Below, piece by piece: positions 36,206 through 55,865 of a DNA stretch of 64,000 nucleotides. Under the pieces are notes generated by a model. It saw only the letters and a list, made by a program, of their open reading frames with translations. It was not told where the DNA came from and did no database searches. Each line of letters opens with the position of its first letter. Position 1 is the first letter of the stretch. The DNA is from Trichoderma breve (lineage: Eukaryota > Ascomycota > Sordariomycetes > Hypocreales > Hypocreaceae). The stretch spans positions 6,510,001-6,574,000 of the forward strand of contig NC_079233.1 of NCBI RefSeq assembly GCF_028502605.1. Reading direction: 5' to 3'. Position numbers and translations under genes: made by a program.

Positions 36206-37339
36206 TTACCCCAGCCACTGTCTCCAAACCCGTTCTTCCTCCGTCTCGCCTTCTGGCGTGATTTCGAAATCACCGACCTGTACGGCTACGCTGCCCGTAG
36301 ACTCTGTTCCGGACGTTGATGATGGCTTTGTTGCCGCTCCACAGGCAAAATCTAGTAGCGGGCGCTCGAATTCTGCCGAAGGCGCGCCTACAATTTTCTT
36401 TGGTGAATTGTACACATTTTGACGTCGAGCCGCTCTATCTCGGCATGGCGACGACAATAGCAGATCGCTGCTCGTACTCGGCGGAGAACAGCCTGTAAAA
36501 GACTCACCGGCAATGTAGGACGCAATATTGGCACCTCCAAGCCGTGTGGTGTGCGTTGTTTGTTCGGCTTCGGGTCCAATGCTTTGGGCTTCCGAGTGAT
36601 CACCGAAAGTGGGATTTCCGATGGCATCTGGCATGGGATTCTGTATGGAATTTCTCGTCTCACTCCATCCAATATCTTGACTGCCGATGCGTATTCTGAT
36701 CGACCTAAGGCTAGGTGGAGGTGTGTTCTGGGTCACTCTTCTTTCTCTTACACCTCTCTGTTTGTCAAGTTTCGACCGGAATTCGCGACGGGCGACGGAC
36801 GTTCTGTGCTGCTGATCCAAGATATGCCTCGAAAGGGGTGGACGCTCAAAAATCTGCCGCGTGGGCTCCTTCACTGAGAGTTTCGGCAGTTTGACTTTTG
36901 CAACATCTCCTTCTTGGAAAGTTTTCCGACGCACAGTTCTTTGATTAGAAGCACCCATGGGGTGATTTTCTAACGACTGATCCAGCACAGGGAATCCACC
37001 TGTCTCGCCAGACGAAGCAATTAATGGCAGTTCGGCAACATCTCCTCGCAATGGTTTTAACGGACTATTCAAGCTTCTTGATGCCTCATCTGCAGCGCCT
37101 GTGGGTTCACTAATCGGCATGGATGCTGGAAATGCTGCTTCCCCTAGGCTCGTGGTAGCTTGTGGCGGAGGTGCATAATTGGGGATGAAATTAGCTGCAG
37201 AGAGCGGTACAGGGCTCGATTTTGCACCCTCACGCTGTCGAGAGCGGGCCTTGGCGAAGTATTCTTTTTGTCGTGCCATTTCCTCCTTCCAGCCCTTGCC
37301 CCGACGGTGCCGAGAGAGATTTCCTCCCATCCAATTCAT
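36206..37339 (-). CDS. Uncharacterised protein with conserved MNWxGG N-terminus
   Basis: 377 aa, no intron. I start it at MNWMGGNLSRHRRGKGWK because short N-terminal motifs of this kind (MNW-x-GG-x-L-x-RH, then RQKEYFAKAR) recur at the start of uncharacterised ascomycete proteins, from memory. The frame is open upstream to 37549, adding 70 residues that include a hydrophobic stretch and an LDN/LDT repeat produced by 9-bp tandem units; I consider that leader sequence. The body is polar and probably disordered, with basic patches (residues about 165-225), and ends GETEEERVWRQWLG, another possible conserved motif. No function can be given. It is the last gene left of the polyketide cluster. Confidence 0.7.
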   Translation of the reverse strand: MNWMGGNLSRHRRGKGWKEEMARQKEYFAKARSRQREGAKSSPVPLSAANFIPNYAPPPQATTSLGEAAFPASMPISEPTGAADEASRSLNSPLKPLRGDVAELPLIASSGETGGFPVLDQSLENHPMGASNQRTVRRKTFQEGDVAKVKLPKLSVKEPTRQIFERPPLSRHILDQQHRTSVARREFRSKLDKQRGVRERRVTQNTPPPSLRSIRIRIGSQDIGWSETRNSIQNPMPDAIGNPTFGDHSEAQSIGPEAEQTTHTTRLGGANIASYIAGESFTGCSPPSTSSDLLLSSPCRDRAARRQNVYNSPKKIVGAPSAEFERPLLDFACGAATKPSSTSGTESTGSVAVQVGDFEITPEGETEEERVWRQWLG

Positions 37340-37425: not shown

Positions 37426-37900
37426 ATGATGGATGGAGAGGGAAAGGTGAAGAGTTGCAGGTTGAAAAGTGCAATAAAAGGATAAGGTAAGGTACGAGAA
37501 TGATGCTGAAGCAGAGGAGGAATAATTGTGTTGAACGCACCTGCTCCATGTCATGTGTTGATTACGCATGCAATTTGGCAAGATGCAGAGGTAGGAGCAA
37601 TCCTAATGATCACAGCATTTCCAAACATTGATACAGAGGTACCCAGTAGGTGCTTCAGGTGTTTCAGGTGCCTGTACTCTAAGGCAAGTGTCCTAAGAGA
37701 TACATATCCTCCTGTACCTGCAAAACCTGCTGGGCATATTACCTAGGACGCATTCTGGTGTCTTTACATGCAAAATAAACAGCGCCAAGCCAACAGTATC
37801 AATCTACTACTTGCTGTGAACGGCAATACGGCACGTTATTTCGATGTTTTGTTTTCGAGAACCGCCGCGATGTCCCTAGAGCGGTGGCGATAAATTAAAT

Positions 37901-38143
37901 AGATACAAGGAGTGATAGCGGGACTTGATTAAACTGTTGTATTTCCATCGATTACAGCGCCTATCTACCAGGATAGCATCATATTTTCATCATGACTATA
38001 GATTCATATGGCCATTTGTAAATTATCTTGACAATTTATGGCGAGATATCTATTGCAACACAATTTGCTCTTATCCTCAGACCCCGTCCATCAGTACAGT
38101 GTAGTGACACAGTGCCCACCAGTAGCACTGTATGAGCTGCAGT
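37901..38143 (+). repeat. Direct repeat copy 1 (left flank of PKS cluster)
   Basis: About 243 bp aligns with 52491-52717 in the same orientation. The ends align best: the first 34 bases (starting TAGATACAAGG) match at about 28 positions, and the last 55 (38089-38143 against 52663-52717) match at 49, with five of six differences being transitions. Short indels lie between. The right end has an inverted repeat, TACAGTG at 38095-38101 and CACTGTA at 38126-38132. Beyond both ends the two loci share no obvious similarity. Confidence 0.85.
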
Positions 38144-39219
38144 AGAATCGCGCGCTCTGCTTCTTCCATCCCCTTCTCCTCATCCCGTCTTACCTCCCCC
38201 GAAAAAGCTAATGGCACTCGCCCGCGCCCTCCAACACCATTCTCGGGGTTCCTCTGCCATTTGAAATTCATTCATGTTAGTGATGATTCAGTAGAAGATT
38301 GGAAGGATTTTTACCGCCGCCAGGATCGATTGCTGTTTTTAGGTAACTTCAGTTACTGTAAAATGCAATACAGACGGAAAGATAACATAAGAATCTGTGC
38401 GTCTTTGCTCTGGGCCGGCCTCTTTTTCAGCTTCAGCCACAGCTTGAGGCCATTCCGAATCAAACATGTCAAGTTCTCATGCACCCGTCGTTTCTATGCA
38501 CATTCACAGGGGTGCTTGCAATGTGGCTTGCTGGCGGAGTGATGCCTAGGTATGCTTACGGTCTTGTACAGCTGTCGGCAAAACTAACCGTTATCTGTTT
38601 CCCAACAAATGGCGGTTAAGATGACATTGATGAGTTACGTCCTGGAAGTCTATGACAAGTTCATTAGGACGAAAGTTTAATGACATGGTCATCAAGGCGA
38701 AAATTCCGCCAGATCTCCCAGAACCCTAGAAGCCCAGCCCTGTCGCGAAATATATGCGGACAATGGATTCGAAGCAGTCAGCCGGTGATGGCAATGCGCC
38801 ATAGGAAGTCATCACGGAGCTGCTAGCTTTTTCCAGACCTCAGACATTGACGACAAAAATGGCTACTGGCTGTGCTGTAGATCGTTTGGATGGCCATTGA
38901 ACTCTGCGTTCTGCGCTCGAGTACTGAAGAGACCTTGGGCTCCGCACCCTATTCATACATGAAACTTCCCGATATGCAGTGAAAATATCATTATACGCCC
39001 AGCGTTGTCTTTCGCCACCTGGTATCTGACAACGACGGGGTAAAGGTTTGAAAAATGGCGCGATGGAAAGCTCAGAATAATGAATCAGCAGTTGAAAGAA
39101 AACAAGGAACAAAAGTTTTATTTCACTGTTTGCCCTGGATATATAGATTATGTATTTGAGAGACATCCCTACTTTAAATAGATATCTTGCTTAGCATGAG
39201 CAATAAATAATTATCAGCT

Positions 39220-42200
39220 CTAATCTTCCGCTTCACCGCCCAATCTATCCTGTTCTTCCATCTCTATCAAAGATTTATCTACAAACTTCGTCTTGGCTGC
39301 AATTTTCAAGCTCAAACCCGTAATGGTACTCCCTCCCATAATGTCAAACACGGGTACATCTGCGTGATAGTCCCGAAACAGCCAATACCTAATCACCACT
39401 GCCACCAGCGAGTCCACTCCATACGTGTACAACGGCTTGTTCACATCAAGGTCATCCGGATTGATGCTCAGAACCTTGCACAGCTTAGCCACAAAAGCGA
39501 CTCGGATCAGTCCGGCAGCCTCATCGAGAGACTTCACTGAGCGTAGAGCGGCGATGGTCTGGGCAGTCAGTTCGCGCTCTTGGTCGTCGCCGCCGAGCGC
39601 AGACGAATTCTCATCCCTGTTGGCAATCTGGAGGTGACTGAAGAACGGATCCTTGAAGTAGTACGGCTTCTCGAGACCCTTGGCGCGCATCAAAGCAGGG
39701 TTTTCGATGCCAGTGACCACTTGACACGTTGTGGGAGTCGGACGAGGCGTGCTGGGGTTGACGCAGTATTCTATGATGGCGAGGAACTCCTCTTCACGAA
39801 TACCCATGAATCCCCATGCGCTGAGGTTATTGTCAATCTCAGCATTGCCGCCCTCCGCCACATATCCAACGGAGAGAACAAAGCCGAGGTCGATGGCGAT
39901 GGCGTGTTGACCTTGGCTGACTCGATGATGTGCTACTGCATCTTGGAACGTGTTGCCTGCAGCATAGTTCGCCTGGCCACGAGTTCCGTTGATGCCAGAT
40001 GAGGAAGACAGCATGACGAAGAAGTCCAGAGAGTCCGGCAGCATGCTATGGAGATTCCAGGTTCCTGGAACTTTGCTGCGCAGGGGCTCTTGGAAGTCGG
40101 CGTATGACATGTTCTCGAAAGTCGAATCCTGCAGACCAAATGTCAGAAATAAATACTACCAGTCATCGAATTTGAATGATCCCAGCACTTACTCGTAATA
40201 CCATGGCTGCTTGTATGCACCCTTTAATTGGGGGCATCTTTCGTGCACAGTCCTCCAACACAGCAGCAAGTTCAATGGCGCTGCTGACATCACAAGCATA
40301 AATGGCTGCATTCACGCCTCTCTCTCGCAGCTCCTTTGCCATCGCTTTGCCCTTGTCACTGTTTGGCCCTGATCGCGAGCATAAGATCACATTCTTCAGG
40401 TTCTTGTCAACCATCCATCTCACCATGCTCCGAGCAAGGCCGCCAAGGCCACCCGAAATCAAGTAGGATGCATTCTCATCAAAGTATCGCGGCATCTTCA
40501 TCGGAGGGAGTGCCTTGAAAGCAAATTAGCATGTTACCCGGAGAAAAAAAAGTTTGTCTTGAAGACTTACTGGTACGACGTCGTCGTCATGAGGTTCAAG
40601 GATAATCTTCCCGATGTGCTTGGCCGCCTGCATGAATCGGAAAGCCACCTCCATTTTCGAATACGGGAAGAGATTCAAAGGTTTTGCAGGCGAAATCTTC
40701 TTCTCCCTTGCCAAATCCATAATCTCTCTCAAGATTCGACCGACCATGTCGCGATTGTCCTTCAACACCACGGCGACAGATGAAAACGTAGCGCCTCTAG
40801 CGAACACACTCATCTCGAGACGCCTGTTCAGATCAATGTCTCGCCTGCCAATCTCGATGAATCGACCTGATGGAGCCATGAGTTCCCATGACTGCCGGAG
40901 TGCTTCCCCAGATAGAGAATTGAGAACAACGTCAACACCACGTTGGTTCGTCAATCGCATGACTCCTTTGGCAAAGGAAAGGTCTCGACTCGAAAAGATG
41001 TGGTCTTCTTTGATATTATACGTCTCCATCAAGAAGTGCTTCTTTTCCGCCGTGCCAACAGTGACAAATATTTCCGCGCCAATGAGCTGAGAAAGCACAA
41101 TGGCTGCTTGGCCAACGCCTCCCGCGGCAGCGTGGATCAGCACACTCTCACCCTTCTTTAACCTAGCCAGCTCGAACAGAGAGTAGTATGCTGTCCAGTA
41201 GACGAGCGGCAATGCAGCGGCTTCCGCAAAGCTCATATGGTCCGATATCCTCTGGAACAAGCGAGCATCGTCCCTGTAGAAAGTTCGGAATGTTCCAACA
41301 CCGACGCTGCAGACCCTGTCCCCAACCGTGAAATCACTCACATCTTTGCCTACCCTGGTTATGACACCTGAGCATTCATTGCCCAGCCAAGTATCGCTCA
41401 GCTGGCCCATTGCAATCATCACGTCCTTGAAGTTGAGTCCTACAGCTTTGACTTTCACCTCGATCTCATTGGGACCGAGTTCAAGACCATATACATCATC
41501 GTCCTTGAAGTGAAAGGTACTCAGTGTTCCTGGAGACGAAATGTCCAATTTCAGAGCTCGGTCATCCTTGCTAAAGGGGACAAGCTGAGTCTCCGGCTTC
41601 GCGTACAAGGAGGTGAAAGTCTCGGCAAATTGATCGTCATGAACTAGTCTGGAGATGAAGAGGTTTCCGTCCTTGACCGCATACTCATTCTCAGTGATTG
41701 CAGGCGACGTTGAGAGACGCATGTACACTTTGGCGATTGAATTCGCTGCCGACTCCACGGTCACATCCTCCTCCAAGTCAAGTCTGACAAATCGGTACCC
41801 TTCACGCTCAGCCCGGACATTGCGTCCAAATCCATTTGATAGTGCAGACAGAGGGTTTTCTGTGGCAAAGGTGCCTCCTTTCGTGACCCAGACTATGGCT
41901 GAAGCAGCCCCAACCATGTGTTGTAGGTCTGCATATTCATCCTCTTTGAGCTTATGGAGCATAGTGTCGTGGAGCTCAGCAATGCAAATGACTGGTTTTC
42001 TGGCAATGTCATGCTTCCTAATTGATGTGAAAGGCAAGATGGTGACTGTTTGACCCTGTCGCTGCAGTCTTCCTTGGACTTCTGATGCGAGAGCCTCCTG
42101 CGGATTGCTAGGGGATGTGACCACTACGACATCTGTTCCGGAGACTTGACGGTCAGGCATATAGGTGCTAACCAGAATACTAGCTTGGTGAAGGCTGGGA

Positions 42201-45200
42201 TCTTCCATATCTTTGATGATATGGTCGCAGGCCTCAAACCCGTGGCGCTGAAGCAAATTATTCCACTCGTCGGCCGTAATGGTAGGTCCCCATTTCCTGT
42301 TCTTCTCTTTGGACAACCACCACCCTGGAAGCAGACCGAAGAGAAACGGCGAGCGCAAGAGGTCCTGGTTCGTGATTTCCACCAGTATGAGCTTACCGCC
42401 CGGTTTCAGCAACTTCTTGGTGTTGTCCAATGTGACATCAAGTCGCGCGGTAGCATGCAAAACGTGAGACGCTACAATCACATCATACTTATTGAGCTCA
42501 AAACCTTGCTCGACTGGGTCGACCTCGATGTTGAGAGTCTTGTATGTCATGACGTCGATCCAGTCTTGGAACTTCTCTTTCGCTTTGTCGAAGAAGCCGC
42601 CTGATATATCCGTGTACATGTACCTGGCAATCCTCACCATTCCTTCGCCGGTAAGTGCATTAAGGATAGTCTTTGTGGCAGAGCCAGTGCCAGCGCCGAT
42701 CTCAAGGATATTCATGTCTGGATTTTTAAAGGCAGCCGTGTCCAAGTAGGTGGCAAGGTGTTGATGAAGCGTCTCGCTGCCAATGGCAAACTCGTAAAAC
42801 CGGTCTAGAAGCTGATCTTCGGCCAACAGCTCCAGGAAACCAGTTTCCTGCTTCAGGATCCGACCTAGATTTCGACCAATCCTCGTCATGGCTTGACCGT
42901 CCACTGAGGAAGCCTCAACCTTTTCTTCTAAGGCGACTCGGTCAACCTCTTGCTTTTCGCCCTGTCCAAATCTCTCCGCCTGGAATCTCATCCAGCTGAC
43001 GTATTTCTCCAAGTGTGGAGGCATATTTATGCTTGAGTCCTGTTCCAAGGCTGCAAGTGTCTCCTTGATATAGCTGATGCCCAACAACTCCAGATCATGC
43101 GTTTCAGTCGTCCAGTCTTTCTGTTTTGCGTCTCCCGACAGTCGAATAAGATGTTTCGTGTCGACAAAGTCCACGTCTGGTTGCCACGCAATGTTGAATG
43201 AACCAACTTGTCTGTTTTGGGACGCTTGGGGTGCCGTGGAAAAGTCCGCAGAGTGCACAACTTTCGAGACAGAGTCTCTGAGGATAACCCATGGCGATTG
43301 GCGATCTTCGTCCATGAGAACACCCCAGCCCCTGGCTTCTCGGGCACTCATCCACCTTGCGTTGCCATAGCCCGAGAAGCTGTAGTCTGCATCGACAGAT
43401 ATTGAAGCTGAGACCCAAAGCTTTCCGATGAGAGTTGGTATGATTGGCTCGTCCAGACTTGCAATGCCACGTCCCATGGCAGGAAGCAATAGCTGCAGTA
43501 AGTTGTCCAGTGTGATTGGATGGATCACCGGCTGGTGATAGTAGCCGTTTGGCATGATTGCCTTTAAATCTGGGTTCTTGATATTTCCAATGGCTTCGTT
43601 GTCAGTGTATCTGATGTTGTGGATTGCCCTGAAGGTTGGACCGTACTGCAGCCCAATAGACTCGTAGTGATCGTACATCTGCTTTCGACCCAGCTCTTTC
43701 TGGCAACGAGTCTCTGCGCCTTTGACGAGCTCTCGGAGCTCCCGTGCCTCGGCTTCAACTTCACTTTCTTTACCAAGAGAATCCGTAGGCTGGGTCTCGT
43801 ACTCAACGGAGACGAGTCCACGGCAATGCTCACGCCATTCATATTCTTCACTGTAAGAATATACGTGGAACTCATTCCATGTCGCAGAGCCTCCGAAGCT
43901 GTTATCACCGTGTGGTCGCATGCAGAACATTGTCTCCACACCGTCGGCTGTTTTTGGTATTGCCAGAGCTTGATGAAGAGTTATCTCACGTAACTGATAG
44001 CCTGATATTGTCCGAGTAACATCAGCAAGTTGGCGCGATGCTTCGATGGCCATGACGAGAGATGCCGCAGCTGGATAAAGCACCACGTCCGTTATCATAT
44101 GGTCCACAAGCCAAGGATTCTCAGAGACCCTGAGGACATTCCGCCATTGAGGCTCGAGCGGGTTCCAGTCAGAGACGGGCGCACCAAGGATATCATGCCG
44201 TGGAAACTTTCGGAACCGAAACCCCTTGCTCATGCGGCTCTCGCACCAGTACTTATTCTCATGGTTCCACGCGTAGCTTGGCAAGTCAATAAGCATCTCC
44301 TGAACACCGGGATTGTTGATGAATTGAAAGTCCAGTTTCGAGCCGTACTTGTAAAGGTTTCCCGCCAACTGCAACGCAGTTTCTACCGCTGATCTGCTCC
44401 GGGATAGCATCGAGAAATACTGCATACCCTTACAGCTGCTCTCTGCAGCCATTGTCTGCTTCATCGGTCCTTGTAGCGCCGAGTGTGGCCCAACCTCGAT
44501 GAGAATATCCAAGGGGCTCTCTTGACTGCCAATCGTGATTCCCTTCTTAGTCGGCCGCTGCGTGCACATGGCCCGAGACGAGTGATGAAACAGCACTGGG
44601 GAGACCAGGTTGGACACCCAGTAATCTGGTGTCGCAACGGACGCCTTGTCGGCAATCGTTCCCGTGACCGACGAAAACATCTCAATCTTGTTCTTTTGGT
44701 CGGACGATGCAAAGTCGAGTGTTTCGAGTTTGGCACGGTATGCCTCTGCGACTCTATTCATGTATGGAGAGTGATACGCAGCCTTGACATGCAGCTTGCG
44801 GGAGAAGATGCCTTCTTCATCGAGGAGAATCTTCAGCTTGTCAACCATGTCCTCGTCTCCCGAAACCGTGACATTGGTAGGACTATTTACGCATGCGACT
44901 ACGAGTATCTTGCTGCTTTCTTCGAGTCTTGCGATGTACTGAAGCGTCACCTGCTCAGATGCTCCGACCGCCATCATTGCGCCAGTGTTCGTTGTGCCGT
45001 CAGAAGAAACAGCTTCCACCACCGCTTCACCACGGTAATAAGCGATGCCCCAGGCACATTCTCTGCTGATTATGCCGGCTGAGAAGGCTGCAGCAATCTC
45101 GCCAGACGAATGACCGACGACCCTCGACGGCGTCAATCCCCAGCTCGAAAGCAGCTCCACGAGCGCTACTTGCAAAGCAGTGGAAAAAGGTTGGCTAATG

Positions 45201-47249
45201 GCCGGATCATGAATCCTAGCTGTGTTTTCATCATCCAGGAATGTGTCTAATAGGGACCACGTGGCGCCTAGGGATTGTCGCAAGTAAACGTCAGCTGCCG
45301 TTAAGCTGTCTGCGAAGATGGGATATCTCAAGTACAGAGCTCTTCCCATGCCTTGCCACTCAGCTCCCTGGCCTGTGAATATAAATCCAATATTTGGCTC
45401 TTGACTAGAGCGAATGGGCTTCAGGGGAGAGTTGTCCATTTCCTGGACGAGTTCATTAACTGAACTTGCCACCGTGAAGGACTTCCAAGGCAGGGATGTT
45501 CTCTTGGTAGACAAGGTGTAAGCAAGCCTCTCCAGAAACGTTGTTTCTCGTTGTTTATCGGCGTCGTTCCGAAGGAATTTTGAGTATTCCTTCACCACTC
45601 GTTCTATTCCCTTTTGATCCGAGGCGGACCACAAGAATAGGTTCGCAGAGGTGAAGTCTGTAACATTCACAGGGGTGCCATTATGCAAGTCGCCATTTGT
45701 ATGCGTTCCATTGACACCATTCAACGGGCCACCGGGGCCTGCAACTGTGTTGTGCCGACATTCGAGCCTGTGCTGCTGCAGATAGTGGTATGCATCGTCA
45801 AGAATGACGTGAGAATTACTTCCTCCGTACCCGAAAGAATTGATCGAGGCCCGCCTCAATCCGCTGCATGGCCACGGAGTATTGGACGTGGGAAACTGCA
45901 AATGATGTCAGTAAGGTTCTATTCTCCTTTTCAGGCCAAATTCTTACCTTGAGTTTCCATTGCTTTGCTGGAATCTTGGGATTGACCTTCTCCATCCAAA
46001 TGTTAGGAGGGATATTGCCAGTCTCCAACACCATAATGGTCTTGATTAGCCCAGCCAAACCACTTGAACCTTCAAGATGCCCGATGTTGGATTTGATTGC
46101 CCCGACGATGAGTGGTTCGCCATCATCCTTTGTTCTAGCCTCAGCAAAAGTCGCTGCTATAGCTCCAGCTTCCAGAGGGTCACCAGCCGCTGTGCCTGTA
46201 CCATGTGCCTCAAAGTATCTGGTTTGCTCTAGCCCGAGTCCAGCTTTGGCATATGTTTCTCTAATCAAGGACCTTTGTGCTTCTTGACTTGGAAGTGTAA
46301 TGCCTGGTGTGCGACCATCTTGGTTGACGCCTGTTCCTCGCACCACGGCACGAATTGTGTCGCCGTCACGGATGGCACTGGAGAGCCTTTTTATAATTAC
46401 TGCTCCAAGCCCTTCGCCTCGAGCGTAGCCATTTGCCCGGTGATCAAAGGAGTAACACTTGCTATCAGGGGAAAGGAAGCGCATGGCTGTTGAGGGAACC
46501 ATCTGGTCGGGATTGTAGAAGAGATTGGACCCTGCTACGACCGCCTGTGAGTGGATTAGATTAGTGAGGCATCTTTACGGATTTGGTGGTTCTGACCATT
46601 TCTGCTTCTTCATGCTGCAAGCTTCGGCAAGCTAGATGAAAAGCTGTCAAGCTGCTTGAACACGCCGTATCGAGACTCATGCTAGGGCCTTTGAGATCGT
46701 AAAACCAGCTGACTCTGTTGGAAAGCATCGCCATTCCATTCCCCGTTGCCTGATATGCCGAAAGATTCTCCGGGTCTCGACCCAAGAGTCCTTCGTAGTC
46801 GCGAGTAAAAGCGCCGACGAAACACGCTGTGCGCGAAGACACGTATTTGCTCATAGGAATGCCCGCATTCTCAAAGCCTTCATAGACCACCTCTAACAGC
46901 AAACGCTGCTGTGGATCCATCGTCTTTGCTTCATCGGGAGAAATTGAGAAGAACGGGGCATCAAAAGCTGATATATCTTGCTGTAGGTAATGGCCACCTC
47001 GAAAGTTCACCTGCGTTGCGTTTCAGTTAACTCAAAGCGCCTCAAGTGTGGTTTACTTACGGTACCGCCATGATCGGCATTTGGGTGATAAAATGCGTCG
47101 ACATTATATCGATTTTTGGGAGTCGGCGTAAGAGCTGAACGCCCATCGCATAACAATTCCCATAGACCTCTGGGGCTTGAAGCGTCTTGAGGGAAGCGAA
47201 CTGAGATGCCAACGATCACAACAGGATCGTCATTAAGGGGAGCATCCAT
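39220..47249 (-). CDS. Highly reducing polyketide synthase (KS-AT-DH-MT-ER-KR-ACP)
   Basis: Six exons on the minus strand: 47249-47061, 47010-46597, 46544-45948, 45895-40571, 40513-40193 and 40128-39220. All join in frame to 2584 aa. KS (about 8-430) has DTACSSS with Cys180, EAHGTGT with His315 and KSNIGH with His357. AT has GHSSGE with Ser663. DH has His near 999 in DHMITDVVLYP, where the usual Gly of HxxxGxxxxP is Asp. MT has ILEIGAGTGSATK near 1465. ER has HAAAGGVGQAA near 1988. KR has YLISGGLGGLARS and later GQANYAAGNTF with the catalytic Tyr. ACP has YGVDSLVAV near 2518 for the phosphopantetheine arm. No thioesterase, reductase or carnitine acyltransferase follows the ACP, so release needs a partner; the divergent hydrolase at 47794 is the candidate. 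The expected product is a methylated, variably reduced linear chain, but its structure cannot be read from sequence. Confidence 0.96.
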
Positions 47250-47793
47250 CTCAACAAGAACGAATATAAACAGAACACTCCACTGAGATTAAATTTGAAC
47301 GAGAGAACGAGAGATGGATTCCTCGAATTCAGCAGTCTTTCTCTCCTTTAAGAGATACTAACAAGTAACTAGTAGATCCCAAGGCTTTACTATTATAATT
47401 ATTCAGGGGTTATCATGTATTTGCGAGAATCATTTGCTACGTGTCTGTAAAGCGTTGATTGCAGTGTTCACCGCTCCTGAGCGCACTTGTGCACTTGGTG
47501 CTGATCCAACAAATGTTCATGTTACATTATCCAGAGTCAGGCTTTTACTTGTGGGATATATCATACTCGTGCTAGAAGCACATTACCTGCTATGCTTGAC
47601 AAGCGGAATGGAGCTGGTAAGCACTAGATGAAAGCAGACCCCCTGGAGTTGTTGACAAGGTACCGAGTGTAAGTCCTCCAACCAGAGCACTGCAGTCCAA
47701 AGACAAATCCGAGCTTAAAGACATTCAATCGTTCACTTGAGTTACAACCAACTTACTTGAGATTAGCGACGATACCTACCTAGTAGCCACAAC
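47250..47793. promoter_or_regulatory. Shared divergent promoter, PKS / serine hydrolase
   Basis: 544 bp separate the two divergent start codons, with no open frame of note. Such a shared promoter would allow co-regulation. I found no binding motif I can name with confidence. Confidence 0.5.
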
Positions 47794-48633
47794 ATGAACA
47801 TCTTGTGCCTACACGGAACAGGAACCAATATATCGGTAAGGTTCGCCACATGATCTCGTAGGCAATTCTCTAACAACCAGAAGATTTTCCAACTGCAATC
47901 GGGTAAGACTTCAATGGCAAGTCCAGAAAGCCAGTTCTAATTAATTAGCGGCTCTACGACACGAACTCGAGAGAGATGGCATGTCCTTTGAATACGCGCA
48001 GGGTGGCCTCAGATGTCCCGCGGCAGAAGGTAAGTAATAGTGGTTCGTCCATTGCTCGAAGCCAAGCCTGCAGACTGACACATAGCAGAGATAGCGGGCT
48101 TGTTTCCGGACTTTTGCGACTTTTACACGTACTACGACCCACGAGAAGCTCATACAATCGTCGAAGCTGAAGATCAACTATTGGAGATGCTGAAAGAGCA
48201 GGAAGGGAAATATGACGGAATACTGGCCTTTTCCGAATCCGCCGCGTTGGCTGCTGCTCTCATCATCCGGCACGCTCGAGAAAACCCATTCAAAGCCGAG
48301 GGGCTTTTTCGATTTGCTATTTTTATATGCGGGCTGGCTCCATTCGATCATGAGACACTGGGCGTTGCTGGAGCGTCCAAGCCAACGCGTGTCAAGCCGG
48401 ATGACAACAAGTCAACGGAAGAGCACCTCATCAACATTCCCACGTATCATATAATGGGCAGCGAGGATGAGTTGTATCCCTACGGGCTGGCATTGTATAA
48501 TTGCTGCGATCCTGAAATGGCCATCAAGACGATACATCGTGGAGGACATGAGATACCCAGTCAGGTGGAGCTGGTGAAGGAGATGACCAGGAACATCAAC
48601 GCTACCATTCAGCGAGCAAATTTCATGTGTTAA
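47794..48633 (+). CDS. FSH1-family serine hydrolase, LovG-like candidate polyketide-release thioesterase
   Basis: Four exons, 47794-47835, 47881-47902 (22 nt), 47949-48029 and 48089-48633, give 229 aa in frame. It starts MNILCLHGTGTNIS, the first strand of an alpha/beta hydrolase. The nucleophile is Ser97 in DGILAFSESAALAA; family members usually have FSQGA, so Gly is replaced by Ser after the Glu. Asp175 in MGSEDELYP and His202 in RGGHEIP complete the expected triad. Known relatives such as LovG release the chain from a highly reducing PKS that has no thioesterase. The PKS next door lacks one and shares this promoter, so the same role is a strong inference. A general esterase is the alternative. 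Confidence 0.88.
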
Positions 48634-49115
48634 TACCGTACTCGTACACATTTGTTGACAAAATTTTCGGTGCCTGGACGTGACTGATGATGAGTCGTAT
48701 TGCTTTAGTTTGAGGTTACCTTACCTACCTCATTGAGGAAGTCGACTTCCCTGCTTCGTTTCCCTAGATGGTAGATCGACATGATGACGTGAGATTCTTG
48801 TGGTTGGGATCGGGATGTTGTCAAATCTCCGAAGGGGTAATCGCTCGATTCGGAAGTTAAGTTCTCGTATTAGATAGACGAGAACGCTAGAAACCTTCTT
48901 TACCGGAGCTAAGGCCGGGATATGTTCATTCGGATTCGGACCCTCACCGCCCAAATACCGGGTTGCCTTGACCGTGTAAGTCCCTTGGATGTTTAGGTTC
49001 GCTTACAGTAGGTCCATGTAATTATAAGGTCACTTGTAGAGTAGAGTAAAAAGTACGAGTGCTGATTGGATTTGACATTCAACCTTGGTAGCCTTCCAAG
49101 CAGAGCGACGAATGT
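48634..49115. other. Intergenic region within the cluster
   Basis: About 480 bp between two same-strand genes. No gene is seen. Confidence 0.5.
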
Positions 49116-50945
49116 ATGGCTACAGTAAACATCTCTCTTGGGCCGATGATGCTCAACGAGTATTCGGTCGTTCTGCCAGTCGTTGTATTGTGCGTGTCGC
49201 TGTATCTTGCAACGAGAAAACAGCTGGCCCTGCCCGTTGTCGGTAGATTGACCTCGCCCGGTCTTTTCGGATTCTGGTTTCCCGGAGTGGTTGCGAATAT
49301 TCTCAACACAAGGGAAGTTCTAGAAAAAGGATATAGAAAGGTGTGACTTTCTTTAGCTTTGGGACAAAGTTCGAGTTGGGATCTGCGCTTACCCGTTCGT
49401 TTTGCAGTATAGTCTAAATGACAAAGCATTCTTTATTCCACAGCTCGAGGCAAACAACATCTTGATCCCACCAGCGTGGATCAAAGCATACAAACGAGCT
49501 CCGACGTCCGATCTGAATCTAGATGGGGCAATTGAAGATGTGAGAGGCCTTTGCTATCATTGCATCCTATCCTTATCCTAACCCTTTTGAAGAATCTTCA
49601 GATCAGATATCTTCTCGGCCCTCAAATACGACAAAACTCATACCATATCGAATGGACGCGCGACAGCCTGACCCCCTTCATGCCATCCGTCTTGGACTGG
49701 CTTCACGAGGAAATCGCAGACTGTTTAGACCAGGTTCTGGGCAAAGATAATCATGACTTCCACAAAGTCAAGATCTTTCCGTTTTCACTCTCTCTGAATT
49801 GCAGAATCGCGGCCAGAATCGTGGTGGGAAAGCCTTTATGCCGGGATGCCAAGTTCCAACATCTTTGCGAGCAGCATTCTCAGCTACTAGTTGTACTCAG
49901 CATGATCCTCAAGTTTTCTTCCAGACTGGTGCAAGCCTCTGGTCGTGAGAATGTCGCCTTTGCGAGGAGTCCAGCGTCAAATTACCGACTTGGTTCGACC
50001 ATTGGTGCTAGAAAGCTACAGAAAGCTGAAGCAAGGCGGTCAAGATTCTAAAGGAACTACAAGTGAACCACCCGAAGGCGAACAAGAATCATTGATGGAT
50101 TCTCTTGTTCGCACGGCTGTATCGAGGACGCCGTCTCTGACCGTTGAGGAGGACATTGCCCACGAAATTACTATGCGATTTCTTAGCATCTTATTCCTCT
50201 TTTCGGGGAGTCCGACATTGACGGTTGCGAACATGGTTCTTGACCTTGTCAGCGAGCCACGGGAGCTATACTTTGATGCTCTACGTTCCGAGGTAACGTC
50301 TGTATTCGAAAAGTACGGCGGCAGATGGACGTTGGAGAATCTCAAGGAACTTGATCTCACAGACAGGTAAGTAGGGTGGGGTTGCCTCGAAGACTTCCAC
50401 CGCCTGCTAATAAGGTATATACAGCTTCATTAAAGAGTCGATGCGCTTACGTCCAGCAGCTTTTACCATAGCTGGCCGCAAAGTTATCAATCCTCGGGGA
50501 TACACTCTCCCAGATAACTCAGCCACGGTGCCATTCGGCTCCTATTTGACTCTTCCCATGTACGCCATACATCACGATCAAAACCACTACCCTCCTCGAA
50601 CTGGAGACGGGTCCGATTTCGATGGTTTTCGGTTTAAGGGGACGGAGAACAATGAAGCTGTGCCACTTGTGGGAAGTAGTGAAACATTTCTCTCTTGGGG
50701 CGCCGGCCGTCACATCTGGTAAGCATATCTTTTTCCTCTTCAGCGTCGGAGTTCTGCTGTCTAACATGCTGCTATTTAGTCCGGGGAGATTTGCAAGTGC
50801 TGCCATACTCAAAATGTGCCTAGCTGAACTGATACGAAAATGTGATTTCAAGCCTCGTAGTCGGATATCTGATGTCACATTTGCGAATATCTATGTACCG
50901 AGCAAGACACTGACGGTGGAGATGCGGAGGCGGAACTCGCAGTGA
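49116..50945 (+). CDS. Cytochrome P450 with an apparent one-base frameshift
   Basis: Five exons are visible: 49116-49340, 49408-49539, 49593-50366, 50425-50718 and 50780-50945. They would total about 529 aa, normal for a microsomal P450, but exon 3 changes frame: coding character runs in one frame to about 49916 and continues in the +1 frame from 49918, across a TTTT run at 49914-49917. The original frame stops at 50049-50051. No plausible intron explains the shift. Features: an N-terminal membrane anchor (residues about 17-32), ESMR (the ExxR motif, about 381), FDGFRF, and a heme-binding GAGRHICPGRF with the Cys codon split by the last intron. The enzyme would oxidise the polyketide at the ER membrane. 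The gene is either newly inactivated or carries a sequencing error; every other splice site and motif is intact. Confidence 0.85.
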
Positions 50946-51561
50946 ATACATATAGAGGGCAACAAATCAAGAGACTCCAGTATACCTTAGTATCTAATAG
51001 ATAATGAAACAACTACCATATTCATGGGCCAACGAAGTAAGGGGGGACAGTTTCCCAGACTTGACTAACATACCAGGAGACAGGCAGACCATATCGGCTC
51101 AACTACACTTCCTCCAACCTGAGATACCGTCCTCCGTATTGCTCTTTGCAGCATTTTCTCCTTCTTTCTTAAGCTAGTAGCAGATCCGGCCGGTTTTTTT
51201 CTTTCACCCTGTTACGAGTATCAGTTCCAATGGATTCATAAGCACTAGAATATAGCAATACCATGCATACTGTAGATCTAAAACCCCTTTTTGCAGGGTT
51301 GTCTGCCCGCTCATTAGAGGTAATATCGCCGACAGGTAGCCTGCATACTCGTACTTGGCAAGGCGATTTATATTCTCCGGCGTGGCGGTGTAAGTGACAT
51401 GGAACGTCTCATTACGAGGCCCAGCTCATCAGCCTTGATAAGTTGTCCCCCCAACCACAGCCAACAACGACGAGTACATGTATTAGATTCTGTATAGCAT
51501 ATGCCGTCGTGAGTCAACATCATTACGATTGGAGGTTTGGTCAACGATAATACCATACGGT
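50946..51561. other. Intergenic region within the cluster
   Basis: About 615 bp with no supported gene, probably the promoter of the next gene. Confidence 0.5.
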
Positions 51562-52464
51562 ATGGCTGCGATTGACGTTGAAACATTCACCACTGGCCAG
51601 ATCGGCCTGTGGAATGGAACACAGGACGGCAAGGATGGCATCGTCGACTACAAGAACGGGCAAGCAAGCGCCGAGACGAATCTCCTGTTTCCACGAGATG
51701 TGGATATCACGGTCCAAGACATGCGATATCTGAGTCCTTCGCCGCAACTCATGAAGAATGGATATCAGCTCATCACAAGTCCAACGGCCATATCCGAGCA
51801 AGACTTTGAAGCCGCCGACTCAACGACCAAAGACGTAATCGAGAGCGATTATTACGAGGAAGTGAGCAGAGTGGTTCGAGAAATGACGCAATCCGACCAT
51901 GTGTTCCCGTACAACTTTGAGACTCGAAACCAACAGGCCAAGGTGCAGGACTACTTGAGGGACGCAATAGACCAGCCAGGACCGCGCCCCGTTGCCCACG
52001 TCGACCGAGATCTGCCAAATGCCATTGTATCGCTGCAATGCGCTCTGGGCAAGGAGAAAGCCGCGGACCTCTTAAAGCGGCACAAACGGTGGGCGCAGGT
52101 CAATCTCTGGAGACCCATCGGCCGCCCAGTTGTCAAGTGGCCGCTCGTCTTTGCGAATCACGATGCGATTCCAGACTGGGACTACGACACGCACATGGCC
52201 CGCGTCTACAGCGTCAACGATCCCCGGATCGCCGACCGAGGGGGCAAGAGTCACAACTGCATCTTGATCGACGACGATCGATACGCTTACCACTATGCGA
52301 GCAACGTCGCTCCGGATGAGGCGCTGGTGTTTTTCTCGTTTCACTCGGATCCCAAGATGGTGCTGCCGCATGGAGCGTTTTGGGATAACAAGACGCCGGA
52401 CGATGCGCCGCCGAGGCGATCCCTGGAGGTGCGATGCTTTGTATTTTTCGATGATGTGGAATAA
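51562..52464 (+). CDS. asaB/CmcJ-like hydroxylase/desaturase family protein
   Basis: A single exon of 300 aa starting MAAIDVETFTTGQ. Near residue 190 is VNLWRPIGRPVVKWPLVFAN, the signature block of the fungal asaB hydroxylase/desaturase family, related to CmcJ-type cephem-methoxylase partners and GA4-desaturase-like proteins. Before it lies the familiar N(F)ETRNQQAKVQDYL region, and after it HYASNVAPDEALVFFSFHSD, then the C-terminal RRSLEVRCFVFFDD. Family members are oxidative tailoring enzymes in secondary-metabolite clusters, so oxidation of the polyketide is inferred; the exact chemistry is unknown. It is the rightmost cluster gene, and repeat copy 2 begins 27 bp after its stop codon. Confidence 0.85.
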   Translation: MAAIDVETFTTGQIGLWNGTQDGKDGIVDYKNGQASAETNLLFPRDVDITVQDMRYLSPSPQLMKNGYQLITSPTAISEQDFEAADSTTKDVIESDYYEEVSRVVREMTQSDHVFPYNFETRNQQAKVQDYLRDAIDQPGPRPVAHVDRDLPNAIVSLQCALGKEKAADLLKRHKRWAQVNLWRPIGRPVVKWPLVFANHDAIPDWDYDTHMARVYSVNDPRIADRGGKSHNCILIDDDRYAYHYASNVAPDEALVFFSFHSDPKMVLPHGAFWDNKTPDDAPPRRSLEVRCFVFFDDVE

Positions 52465-52490
52465 GGATGATCGATAGCTGGATTATATAG

Positions 52491-52717
52491 TAGATACAAG
52501 GTGTGAAAGCGGAACTGAACTAAATAGTAGCATTTGCTTCGATATCTGTCAAAATAACATATATTTTGATCACGACTGTTGATTGAAATGGCCGTTTGTA
52601 CATAATCCTGGCAATTCGTCTGTTGTAAGACAGTATGTTCTTCTTATCCATAGAACTTCATCCATCAATACAGTGCAGTGACACAGTGTCTACCAGTAGC
52701 ACTGTATAAGCTCCAGT
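52491..52717 (+). repeat. Direct repeat copy 2 (right flank of PKS cluster)
   Basis: About 227 bp, partner of 37901-38143. Its right end has a perfect 9-bp inverted repeat, ATACAGTGC at 52668-52676 and GCACTGTAT at 52699-52707, also mostly preserved in copy 1. It fills most of the 368-bp gap between the oxygenase stop and the next gene's ATG, so it may overlap the promoter of the coiled-coil gene at 52833. Confidence 0.85.
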
Positions 52718-52832: not shown

Positions 52833-54702
52833 ATGGCAGACGCAGACGAAAAGGAGCGCCAGAAGCAGGAGAAGCTTGCCGCCGCGAGGAAGCGCGTGAG
52901 GATCCCGAGCTTAGCTACCCTGTCTTGTCTGGGTCCATCAAGGTATCTGTTGGCTGACACGGCTTTCTCCAGGTCGAGCAAATGAAGAAGAAGAAGAAGA
53001 AGGATGCGTCTTCTACAAAGGCAGAGCCCAAGGGTGAAGCAGAGGCATCCGCTGCCGACGCTGTTGAGGACACCCCAGAGCAAACACAGCAGACGACAGA
53101 TGACAGCGCCATCGCAGACGACAAGGCTACCGAAGATGACAAGGCAGTCGAAGAACCCAAAGTCGAAGAAGAAGCAAAGTCTGAGGAAGAACCCAAGGCC
53201 GAGGAAGAACCTTCAGAAAAAGCTGTCGAGTCGCCCCCCTCCTCCGACACACCATCCCTTGCGCAACAATCAAAGCTCAGGTCCACCTCTTTCCGCGCCG
53301 GCTCGATCGTAGGTCCAGGACCAATGTCGCCTGGACCATTCAGTCCCGAGGGTGACACAGCCCCTGATATCTATAGAAAACATGTGGCTAGAATCGAAGA
53401 GCTGGAGAAGGAGAACAAGCGACTCGCAAAGGATGCAACCGACTCGGAGAAGAGGTGGAAGAAGGCAGAGGAAGAATTGGCTGATTTGCGCGAGTCTGAC
53501 GGCAAAGAAAGCAAAGATGGTCAAACGGAGAAGCTGGTATGTGGAAGAGACAAGGAGAATCATCTCTTATATGCGCAAAGTTTACATACTTACTAACGGC
53601 GTCGTAGAAGGAGGAGATTGCGTCTCTACAGCGCCAAAACTCTCAACTACAACAGCAAGTGTCTCGCACCTCTGGTCACGCACATCGACAATCAGTGTCA
53701 ATAAACTCTCCCCCTCCGTCACTCCAAGCTGAGCTGGACGCCAAATCAGCCACAATTGAGTCCATGGAAATCGAACTATCAAAGCTCAAGGCTCGTGTCG
53801 AACGCCAAGAGAGCGGGGCGTCGTCAGAAAAAGAGCAGATCACCGCGCTGGAAGACAAGCTTGCCCGCGCCGAAGCCGCAGCTGGCAAGGCTCAGCGTGA
53901 GTTGCAAGACTTGAAGAAGAACCTCGAGCGGACCACCGAGAAGGCTGTCCGCGAAGGCAGTGAGCGAACCAGCGCTGAGACAAAGGCAAAGACGTTGGAA
54001 CGCGAGCTAGATGAAGCAAACAAGGCAAAGGAGGAACTGGAGAAGAAGGTTGAGGCGCTTGATAAGAAGGTCACAACATTGACTACGCTGCATAAAGAGC
54101 AAGACGCACGATCACAAACTCTAAGGAAAGACAAGGAGAAGGCAGAAAGCGAGGCTCAGGAGCTGCGGTCCAAGGTTGAAAAGCTAGAGAGCGAAAACGC
54201 CAAGCTTGCAAGCCGCAAGTCAACAGAGGGCGGTGGCGGCCTTGATGATGAAGGCGTTGATGAGCTCGAGGACGAGGGCAGGCTCAAGCTCGAGAAGAAA
54301 ATTCGCAGCCTCGAAGCTGAGATCCACGAGCTTCGCAGCGGTGCCTGGATCGAGAGACGGCGCGAGATGGAAGCCACCAGTCCAGGGTTCGACGATGTAG
54401 ACCTCTCGGGCAACAACTACCCTCCTGCACACAAGAAGGGATCAACAGGTGGCATTGGCGATTTTATTGCACATGGCCTGAATGCTCTGGCTGGAGGAGG
54501 TGATGACGAACTGCTGGCTGATGACGATGTGGAATTCGACGAAGAGGCTTTCAGAAAGGCGCACGAGGAAGAGGCCAAGAGGCGGATAGAGAGAATCAAG
54601 GAGATTAAGCGGTCACTGAAGCACTGGGAAGGATGGAGGCTGGACGTTGTGGATGTGCGGAGAGGTGGAGGGCAGGGAATTGGAGATATATTTGACATTT
54701 AG
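52833..54702 (+). CDS. Long coiled-coil protein, golgin-like (M protein repeat type)
   Basis: Three exons, 52833-52895, 52973-53536 and 53608-54702, give 573 aa. The N-terminus, MADADEKERQKQEKLAAARK followed by RVEQMKKKKKK, resembles the starts of golgin-type proteins (KLAAAKK-x-V/L). Residues about 35-130 are an acidic Glu/Lys/Pro low-complexity region. Residues about 155-455 are heptad-rich coiled coil with breaks. A conserved-looking tail follows: GGIGDFIAHGLNALAGG, an acidic stretch, then IKEIKRSLKHWEGWRLDVVD. A Golgi tethering role is inferred only from the N-terminus and coiled coil; fungal homologues are often annotated simply as M protein repeat proteins. Its long reading frames and ordinary introns suggest a core gene rather than part of the cluster. 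Confidence 0.8.
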
Positions 54703-55865
54703 TCCCTAGCTTCTGCTCTCATTTGATAATACGAATAAATAAAGACAAGTGCATTTTAAATCTTGTAGAACCTCGTTCAGTGAGATGCTATGAAAGCGAG
54801 ACCGCAAAATAGAGACATAATAGCAGTCACTGGAGAAATATAAACATAGTAGGAAATATAAGTCGTGACGTGGGAAATGTAGATATAGCAGCTACTCCTT
54901 TTGTAGGCGTATAATTTAACTCGTGGGTGTTCGAAATCTTCCTGGTCTCGCTTTTTCTGTCCTCCACTTGCCAGGGTAGCTCCTTGATCAAAGTGACGCA
55001 GAAAGTCCAAACTTTAGCTGACCAACCATACAGCAAGACTCGCGCATGAATCCGTCATTGTCCAGACCTGCTCAGTTCAACATAGCCAAGGGGATAAAAC
55101 AAACAGTCCAACCGCAACGACCAAGATGGCAAAAGCCGCGATTCATAATACCGCTGATGCCAACCCCAAGACTCGCAACGAGAACGTTATCATGGCGCAG
55201 GGCTATTAGCGATTTGCTGCTGCCGCCGCTGCCCATCCTGCTCGATAGGTCGCTAAGGACCCTGCATCATTGATAACGCTCTCATTGCGAGTCGTGATGT
55301 TGGAATCATCGGCATCCCATTATCGACAGCCTTTTCCTAATATTGGTCGCTGCGGAGGGCTGATCGTAAAAAAGTGTCGGAGAATTGCAGATGAAAATTG
55401 CCTCGGGGTCTGGGGGGTAGCTCGCAGCCTTTATATACCTCGATAAATGAGCGCAATGTTGCTCAATGAGTCACATGTGGAATTCTTGCCGAACTTTGTT
55501 GATTGCCATAAACTCTATGCTTGGGTCCAGAAAGGGGGCCGTTGAGTCATCACCGAATCCGGTGAGTTGGGCCTACAGAACGGTGGGTTTTGATATCGCT
55601 GCGGTGTTTCTGATGAGTAAAATGCCTTATTGATGCGGTAACCGTCCTTTAAAGTCATTATGGCCGAAAACTTCATGTTAGCAGTCCAAAACGCTGTGAA
55701 GTTTTAGGAGTTGAAGTGCATGTTGAATATGCCAAGTGACATCATTGGCCGTGTGTAAAAAGGTATGTAAGCGGGGAGGGGAGTAAAAGCTTCATTCAAC
55801 TTCCGTCTCAGTTTCTCATCTCCACTTTGCGTGGCTTTCTCTCTCTCATCTCCAATCTCCAAGCA
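54703..55865. other. Intergenic region
   Basis: About 1.2 kb between two same-strand genes. No supported gene. The last 150 bp is pyrimidine-rich and reads as the leader of the dehydrogenase. Confidence 0.5.

Follow-up and report, generated by a model that had tools for sequence, protein, structure and literature searches.

A four-gene polyketide cluster of Trichoderma breve lies between two copies of a sequence of roughly 240 bp, and these copies (R1 and R2) are homologous direct repeats, found at two places in the 38.5-Mb genome. A feature absent from the original prediction, a frame-broken 93-bp match to the 3' end of a gene on another contig, starts at the inner border of R1. In our reading, R1 and R2 are best explained as an insertion scar, in which the cluster was inserted with duplication of its target; we assign this explanation a probability of about 0.6. 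The window, as the term is used here, is the whole 64,000-nucleotide stretch that was analyzed (contig NC_079233.1, positions 6,510,001 to 6,574,000). The features considered, in window coordinates, were as follows.

36206..37339, minus strand: gene A, left flank, 377 aa (frame; no Pfam or NCBIfam family)
37900..38143, strand (.): repeat copy R1 (alignment with R2 and blastn in its own genome)
38143..38235, minus strand: frame-broken gene fragment, 93 bp (DNA match to the 3' end of C8:555173-556615)
39220..47288, minus strand: highly reducing polyketide synthase (PKS) with KS, AT, DH, MT, ER, KR, and ACP, in several exons (family matches; upstream end approximate)
48079..48633, plus strand: frame with most of an FSH1-type serine hydrolase (PF03959, E 1.1e-20)
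49536..50945, plus strand: cytochrome P450, ends approximate (PF00067, E 2.1e-8, domain match in 50414-50722 only)
51559..52464, plus strand: CmcJ/NvfI-family oxidoreductase, 301 aa (NF041278, E 5e-40)
52491..52717, strand (.): repeat copy R2 (alignment with R1 and blastn in its own genome)
52833..54702, plus strand: right flanking gene, long coiled coil (frame; in Pfam a sub-threshold Filament match only)

The repeat pair and the genes around it

R1 and R2 lie on the same strand in direct orientation, with starts 14,591 bp apart. This agrees with the original prediction of two same-orientation copies about 14.6 kb apart, whose coordinates were right to within one base (R1 begins at 37900, not 37901). 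In a global alignment of 37901-38143 with 52491-52717, 177 of the 222 ungapped columns were identical; transitions (28) outnumbered transversions (17), and 26 columns held gaps. With base 37900 included, identity was 178/223 and K2P was 0.24. Using blastn within the genome, the two copies matched each other at 72% over the gapped length (E of 1.1e-28 in the search at E <= 0.001 and 2.6e-29 in the search at E <= 10). Across all 38,549,885 bases, each copy matched only itself and the other copy at both thresholds; these counts are lower bounds (at least two places), and the many-copy outcome considered in the original prediction was not found. A 29-base pattern taken from R, allowing up to 3 mismatches, also occurred at two places, and its reversed control at none. 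With R at two places only by both blastn and the 29-base pattern in its own genome, we rejected a dispersed repeat.

Chance similarity was ruled out: the local alignment score of R1 and R2 was 139, mononucleotide shuffles scored at most 26, and 0 of the 300 shuffles attained the observed score. The similarity ends sharply at both borders, as had been predicted; the 400-bp flanks beyond R scored like shuffles (observed value reached by 142/300 and 52/300). We used as a repeat control 294 kb of the genome, consisting of the window, four stretches around other ketosynthase matches, and one stretch of contig C8. At E <= 1e-6, R was the sole direct repeat in this control whose copies lay in one stretch and were separated by more than 1 kb. 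Also present were one tandem-like pair, 171 bp apart, and, on contig C1, one diverged inverted pair (65% over 549 columns, with ~7 kb between its members); the inverted pair shows that diverged repeats do occur in this genome. The right-end 57 bp of R were better conserved than the rest (51/57 versus 127/166; nominal Fisher P of 0.036 for a segment chosen post hoc), and this part of R may retain a regulatory role.

The original prediction described the differences between the copies as mostly transitions, compatible with repeat-induced point mutation (RIP). The excess of transitions (28:17) stood, but only 10 of the 28 were in a CpA context. TpA/ApT was 0.76 and 0.91 for the two copies and 0.65 for the window. 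With transitions not biased to CpA and RIP indices not raised, a RIP-mutated repeat was not supported. We also rejected a structured RNA gene: an Rfam scan of the window at the gathering cut-off gave no match, a tRNA search found none, and the best-conserved 71 nt of R, folded on both strands, showed no significant structure (z of -1.4, -0.8, 0.2, and 0.5).

R1 is separated by 560 bp from the presumed start codon of gene A and by 1076 bp from the stop of the PKS. R2 lies 26 bp past the stop of the oxidoreductase (the stop codon ends at 52464 and R2 starts at 52491, hence the predicted start 27 bp after the last cluster gene) and 115 bp ahead of the start codon of the coiled-coil gene. Both copies are thus 5' of outward-facing neighbors and beyond the 3' ends of cluster genes, and given these spacings and the strands of the genes, R is upstream of both neighbors and not of the cluster genes.

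The repeats had been described as enclosing four biosynthetic genes and nothing else. Family matches to a highly reducing PKS, an FSH1-type hydrolase, a P450, and a CmcJ/NvfI-type oxidoreductase bear out the genes, but the insert also holds the fragment at 38143-38235. The FSH1 frame spans profile positions 81-209 of 211, its N-terminal part not being delimited. Three frames adjoining the P450 domain match at 50414-50722 gave no P450 match in the family scans; the neighboring frames are tentatively assigned to this gene by eye, from a motif. The oxidoreductase matches NvfI structure chains 7emz (E of 2.9e-16) and 7de2 (E of 4.6e-16). Ten frames in the gaps of the insert gave no family above the curated cut-off.

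Outside the repeats, a protein search with gene A found 31 relatives, 26 bearing a Trichoderma name and 5 without a name, the closest (93% identical) being named T. harzianum; by this match, the genome most likely belongs to the Harzianum clade. The coiled-coil gene on the right is presumably RUD3-like. Among 10 further window frames that were scanned, 5 had family matches, all of housekeeping type (MRP-L20, RasGAP, cyclophilin, NOT3, and isocitrate dehydrogenase), and 5 had none.

A gene fragment at the inner border of R1

When the stretch between R1 and the PKS (38144-39219) was searched against the genome, it matched, besides itself, one place, C8:556519-556616, on the minus strand. The match starts at the base where the similarity between R1 and R2 ends, and corresponds to the final ~30 codons of a gene on another contig (C8:555173-556615). 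Aligned to its source, the fragment is frame-broken and shows 85 matches with 6 mismatches and 10 gap columns. The same search with five other window stretches gave no match elsewhere for four and a dispersed repeat for one. The fragment, a lysine-rich tail, has little trinucleotide variety (0.61), although low-complexity filtering was on when it was detected. In a protein-level genome search for the fragment's gene, C8:555173-556615 was the only match, and the short fragment itself was not recovered.

We regard the fragment as a candidate junction filler, and its position at the border suggests that it would date from the time of insertion. Ungapped differences amounted to 6/91 in the fragment versus 45/222 in R, so the two may differ in age, though the source of the fragment is a coding gene.

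Kinship of the cluster proteins

Among the best 120 of 5452 matches in the PKS protein search, the closest kin was a Trichoderma cluster of 25 member sequences (95%), followed by Xylogone (68%), a protein without a name (64%; sources jgi, lgn, and ena), and then matches of 43% and less. The oxidoreductase search returned 69 proteins, with 7 at 64% or more: two from Trichoderma (one covering 54%), one from Xylogone, and four without a name. A member of the Hypocreales, Stachybotrys, appeared at 44%. For both proteins, the nearest named kin outside Trichoderma is therefore Xylogone, of the Leotiomycetes (for the PKS, among the best 120 of 5452).

The oxidoreductase tree was built from the query and 44 of the 69 matches, leaving out four partial and 21 low-scoring sequences. 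In this tree, Trichoderma grouped with Xylogone and sequences without a name (support of 100/98), and a clade with Stachybotrys was rejected (p-AU of 3.6e-5). For the PKS tree, 44 of the 120 listed matches were added to the query and a quick method with no mixture model was used; the query grouped with Xylogone and one sequence without a name (support of 100). A clade uniting the query and its orthologue P0001 with four further PKS sequences of Trichoderma was rejected (p-AU of 2.7e-48). Since those four are paralogues, this rejection does not speak for transfer.

Contigs of equal length point to linkage of gene A with the oxidoreductase in two other Trichoderma genomes, and of the PKS with the oxidoreductase in Xylogone and on one contig of 77,925 bp. 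The pattern of nearest kin among these sequences suggests that the cluster was acquired horizontally, although such a pattern gives neither proof nor direction. Old paralogy with losses may be an alternative to transfer, and the two gene trees are compatible with it. The insert has a GC content of 0.495 versus 0.514 and 0.524 in the flanks, and the GC3 of the PKS (0.567) falls inside the range of six other long frames near ketosynthase matches (0.507-0.610); by these comparisons of GC and PKS GC3, a foreign composition of the insert was not found. Two of the ketosynthase regions of the genome, C1:7171523-7178096 and C2:584851-591380, share several stretches at 66-74% DNA identity and are probably related PKS genes.

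Like horizontally acquired fungal biosynthetic clusters, this one is compact, lies among housekeeping genes, and has two proteins whose nearest named kin outside Trichoderma are in another class. Unlike them, it is bordered by a long direct duplication, now diverged, and by a gene fragment. None of the titles and abstract openings listed in the literature searches gave an account of this cluster, its repeats, or such borders, and the accessible part of PMC10735191 makes no mention of the cluster. The PCA cluster of T. harzianum, reported from the Harzianum clade of Trichoderma, was suggested by its authors to have been acquired horizontally (PMC12855858). It is a different cluster, having seven genes and no PKS among those described in the accessible part of that report.

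Explanations for the repeat pair

If the cluster was inserted with target duplication, gene A and the coiled-coil gene would have been divergent neighbors in an ancestor in the Harzianum clade or shortly before, with one intergenic R between them. Foreign or relocated DNA with the four-gene cluster would have been captured at R during the repair of a break. Both chromosome ends would have retained R, either because a staggered break ~240 bp wide was filled in before joining or through an equivalent replication-based event, and the long target duplication that resulted would have placed R on either side of the insert. At the left junction, a short piece copied from a gene of another chromosome would have been added; end joining is commonly accompanied by such filler DNA. 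The outward genes would thereby each have kept the upstream DNA that they had shared. The repeat, its two places, its borders, the gene fragment, and the grouping of two cluster proteins with Xylogone and proteins without a name are observed, whereas the empty ancestral state, the direction in which any transfer went, the route of repair, and any promoter role of R are inferred.

We favor insertion with duplication because it accounts at once for the number, orientation, borders, and neighbors of R. The same sequence stands on either side of the insert in direct orientation, with similarity ending at the insert's borders, as is expected of a target duplication. The original prediction of a duplicated divergent intergenic region is thus supported in part, and provides the best fit to the two copies, their orientation, their 5' positions, the sharp borders, and the fragment. 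Target duplications of this length are unusual, however, and the ~240 bp seen here count against the insertion reading. Also counting against it are the possible difference in age between R and the fragment, the fragment's low trinucleotide variety and its absence from the protein-level search, and the unremarkable composition of the insert; loss of the cluster elsewhere may be an alternative. Tandem target duplication from staggered-break repair is reportedly treated in a 2014 paper by Vaughn and Bennetzen. Repair of staggered breaks with CST/Pol alpha fill-in likewise leaves target sequence on either side of the join, but the tandem duplications in mammalian cells given in the accessible part of PMC8355091 came from overhangs of 43 and 50 bp, versus ~240 bp and a 14-kb insert here.

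The main rival is that R came with the incoming DNA: a circle or an element carrying an R-like segment would have recombined with a resident R in a single homologous crossover. Such a crossover would yield the same R-cluster-R anatomy, and two copies that differed from the outset would account for their divergence. It requires, however, an R-like sequence in the donor, and there is no third R place in this genome; it does not by itself account for the gene fragment at the border of R1, and there was neither a DUF3435 match near the window nor a curated family in the ten frames in the gaps of the insert. We consider this crossover improbable. Somewhat less probable still is that R is a cis-regulatory or insulating element, duplicated and selected at both edges of the cluster independently of any insertion. 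The position of R2 only 115 bp ahead of a start codon would suit such an element, as would the better-conserved right-end 57 bp, at the nominal P of 0.036 for a post hoc segment; but each copy lies upstream of a gene outside the cluster and at the 3' end of a cluster gene, no further R places were seen in the genome, and R gave no Rfam match and no significant fold (71 nt).

Relic solo LTRs or MITEs, which the original prediction had listed as alternatives, are very improbable. The length and direct orientation of R are compatible with such elements, and a dispersed MITE-like repeat lies nearby, but R occurs at two places only and its ends show no TG..CA and no short target duplication. Terminal inverted repeats were likewise absent from R (276/500 and 330/500 shuffles gave equally good ones). 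A search similar to that which found two copies of R gave 39 strong matches for the repeat 2 kb away. Starship giant transposons can also carry fungal biosynthetic clusters between direct repeats, but they have a 5' captain recombinase and repeats of 2-12 bp, according to the accessible part of PMC12153272. DUF3435, the captain family, had no match near the window; with the captain family at neither end of the insert, a Starship was rejected. The sole DUF3435 match in the genome, at 1.53 Mb on C8 (C8:1530687-1532192), has a stop inside its first part.

The route by which transferred fungal clusters enter chromosomes can seldom be seen, since their borders have generally decayed or are the work of transposons. 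At this locus, with two repeat copies and a gene fragment of known source, it may still be possible to read the borders. Should sister genomes have an empty site with one R, the locus would provide a case of cluster integration through DNA repair that could be dated, and it would put to the test the notion that an insertion into a divergent promoter survives if the shared upstream DNA is duplicated. More tentatively, we propose a fuller account, which we consider less likely than not: a horizontally transferred cluster would have been captured by break repair in a promoter region shared by two divergent genes, with duplication of a ~240-bp target and a templated filler from another chromosome, and would have left a readable scar of transposon-free integration. 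The duplicated upstream DNA may explain why this insertion survived in a housekeeping block.

Two further features lie to the right of the coiled-coil gene. Between this gene and an SDR gene, at ~54806-54978 and 2 kb from R2, is the dispersed, MITE-like repeat of ~170 bp, with at least 39 strong matches at other places of the genome (74-94% identity; E <= 1.4e-19; 40 of 68 candidates scored). At 55112-55355 is a 244-bp fold-back with an RNA z of -7.5; none of 200 shuffles was as stable, and among the 40 of 68 candidates scored it had no other copy.
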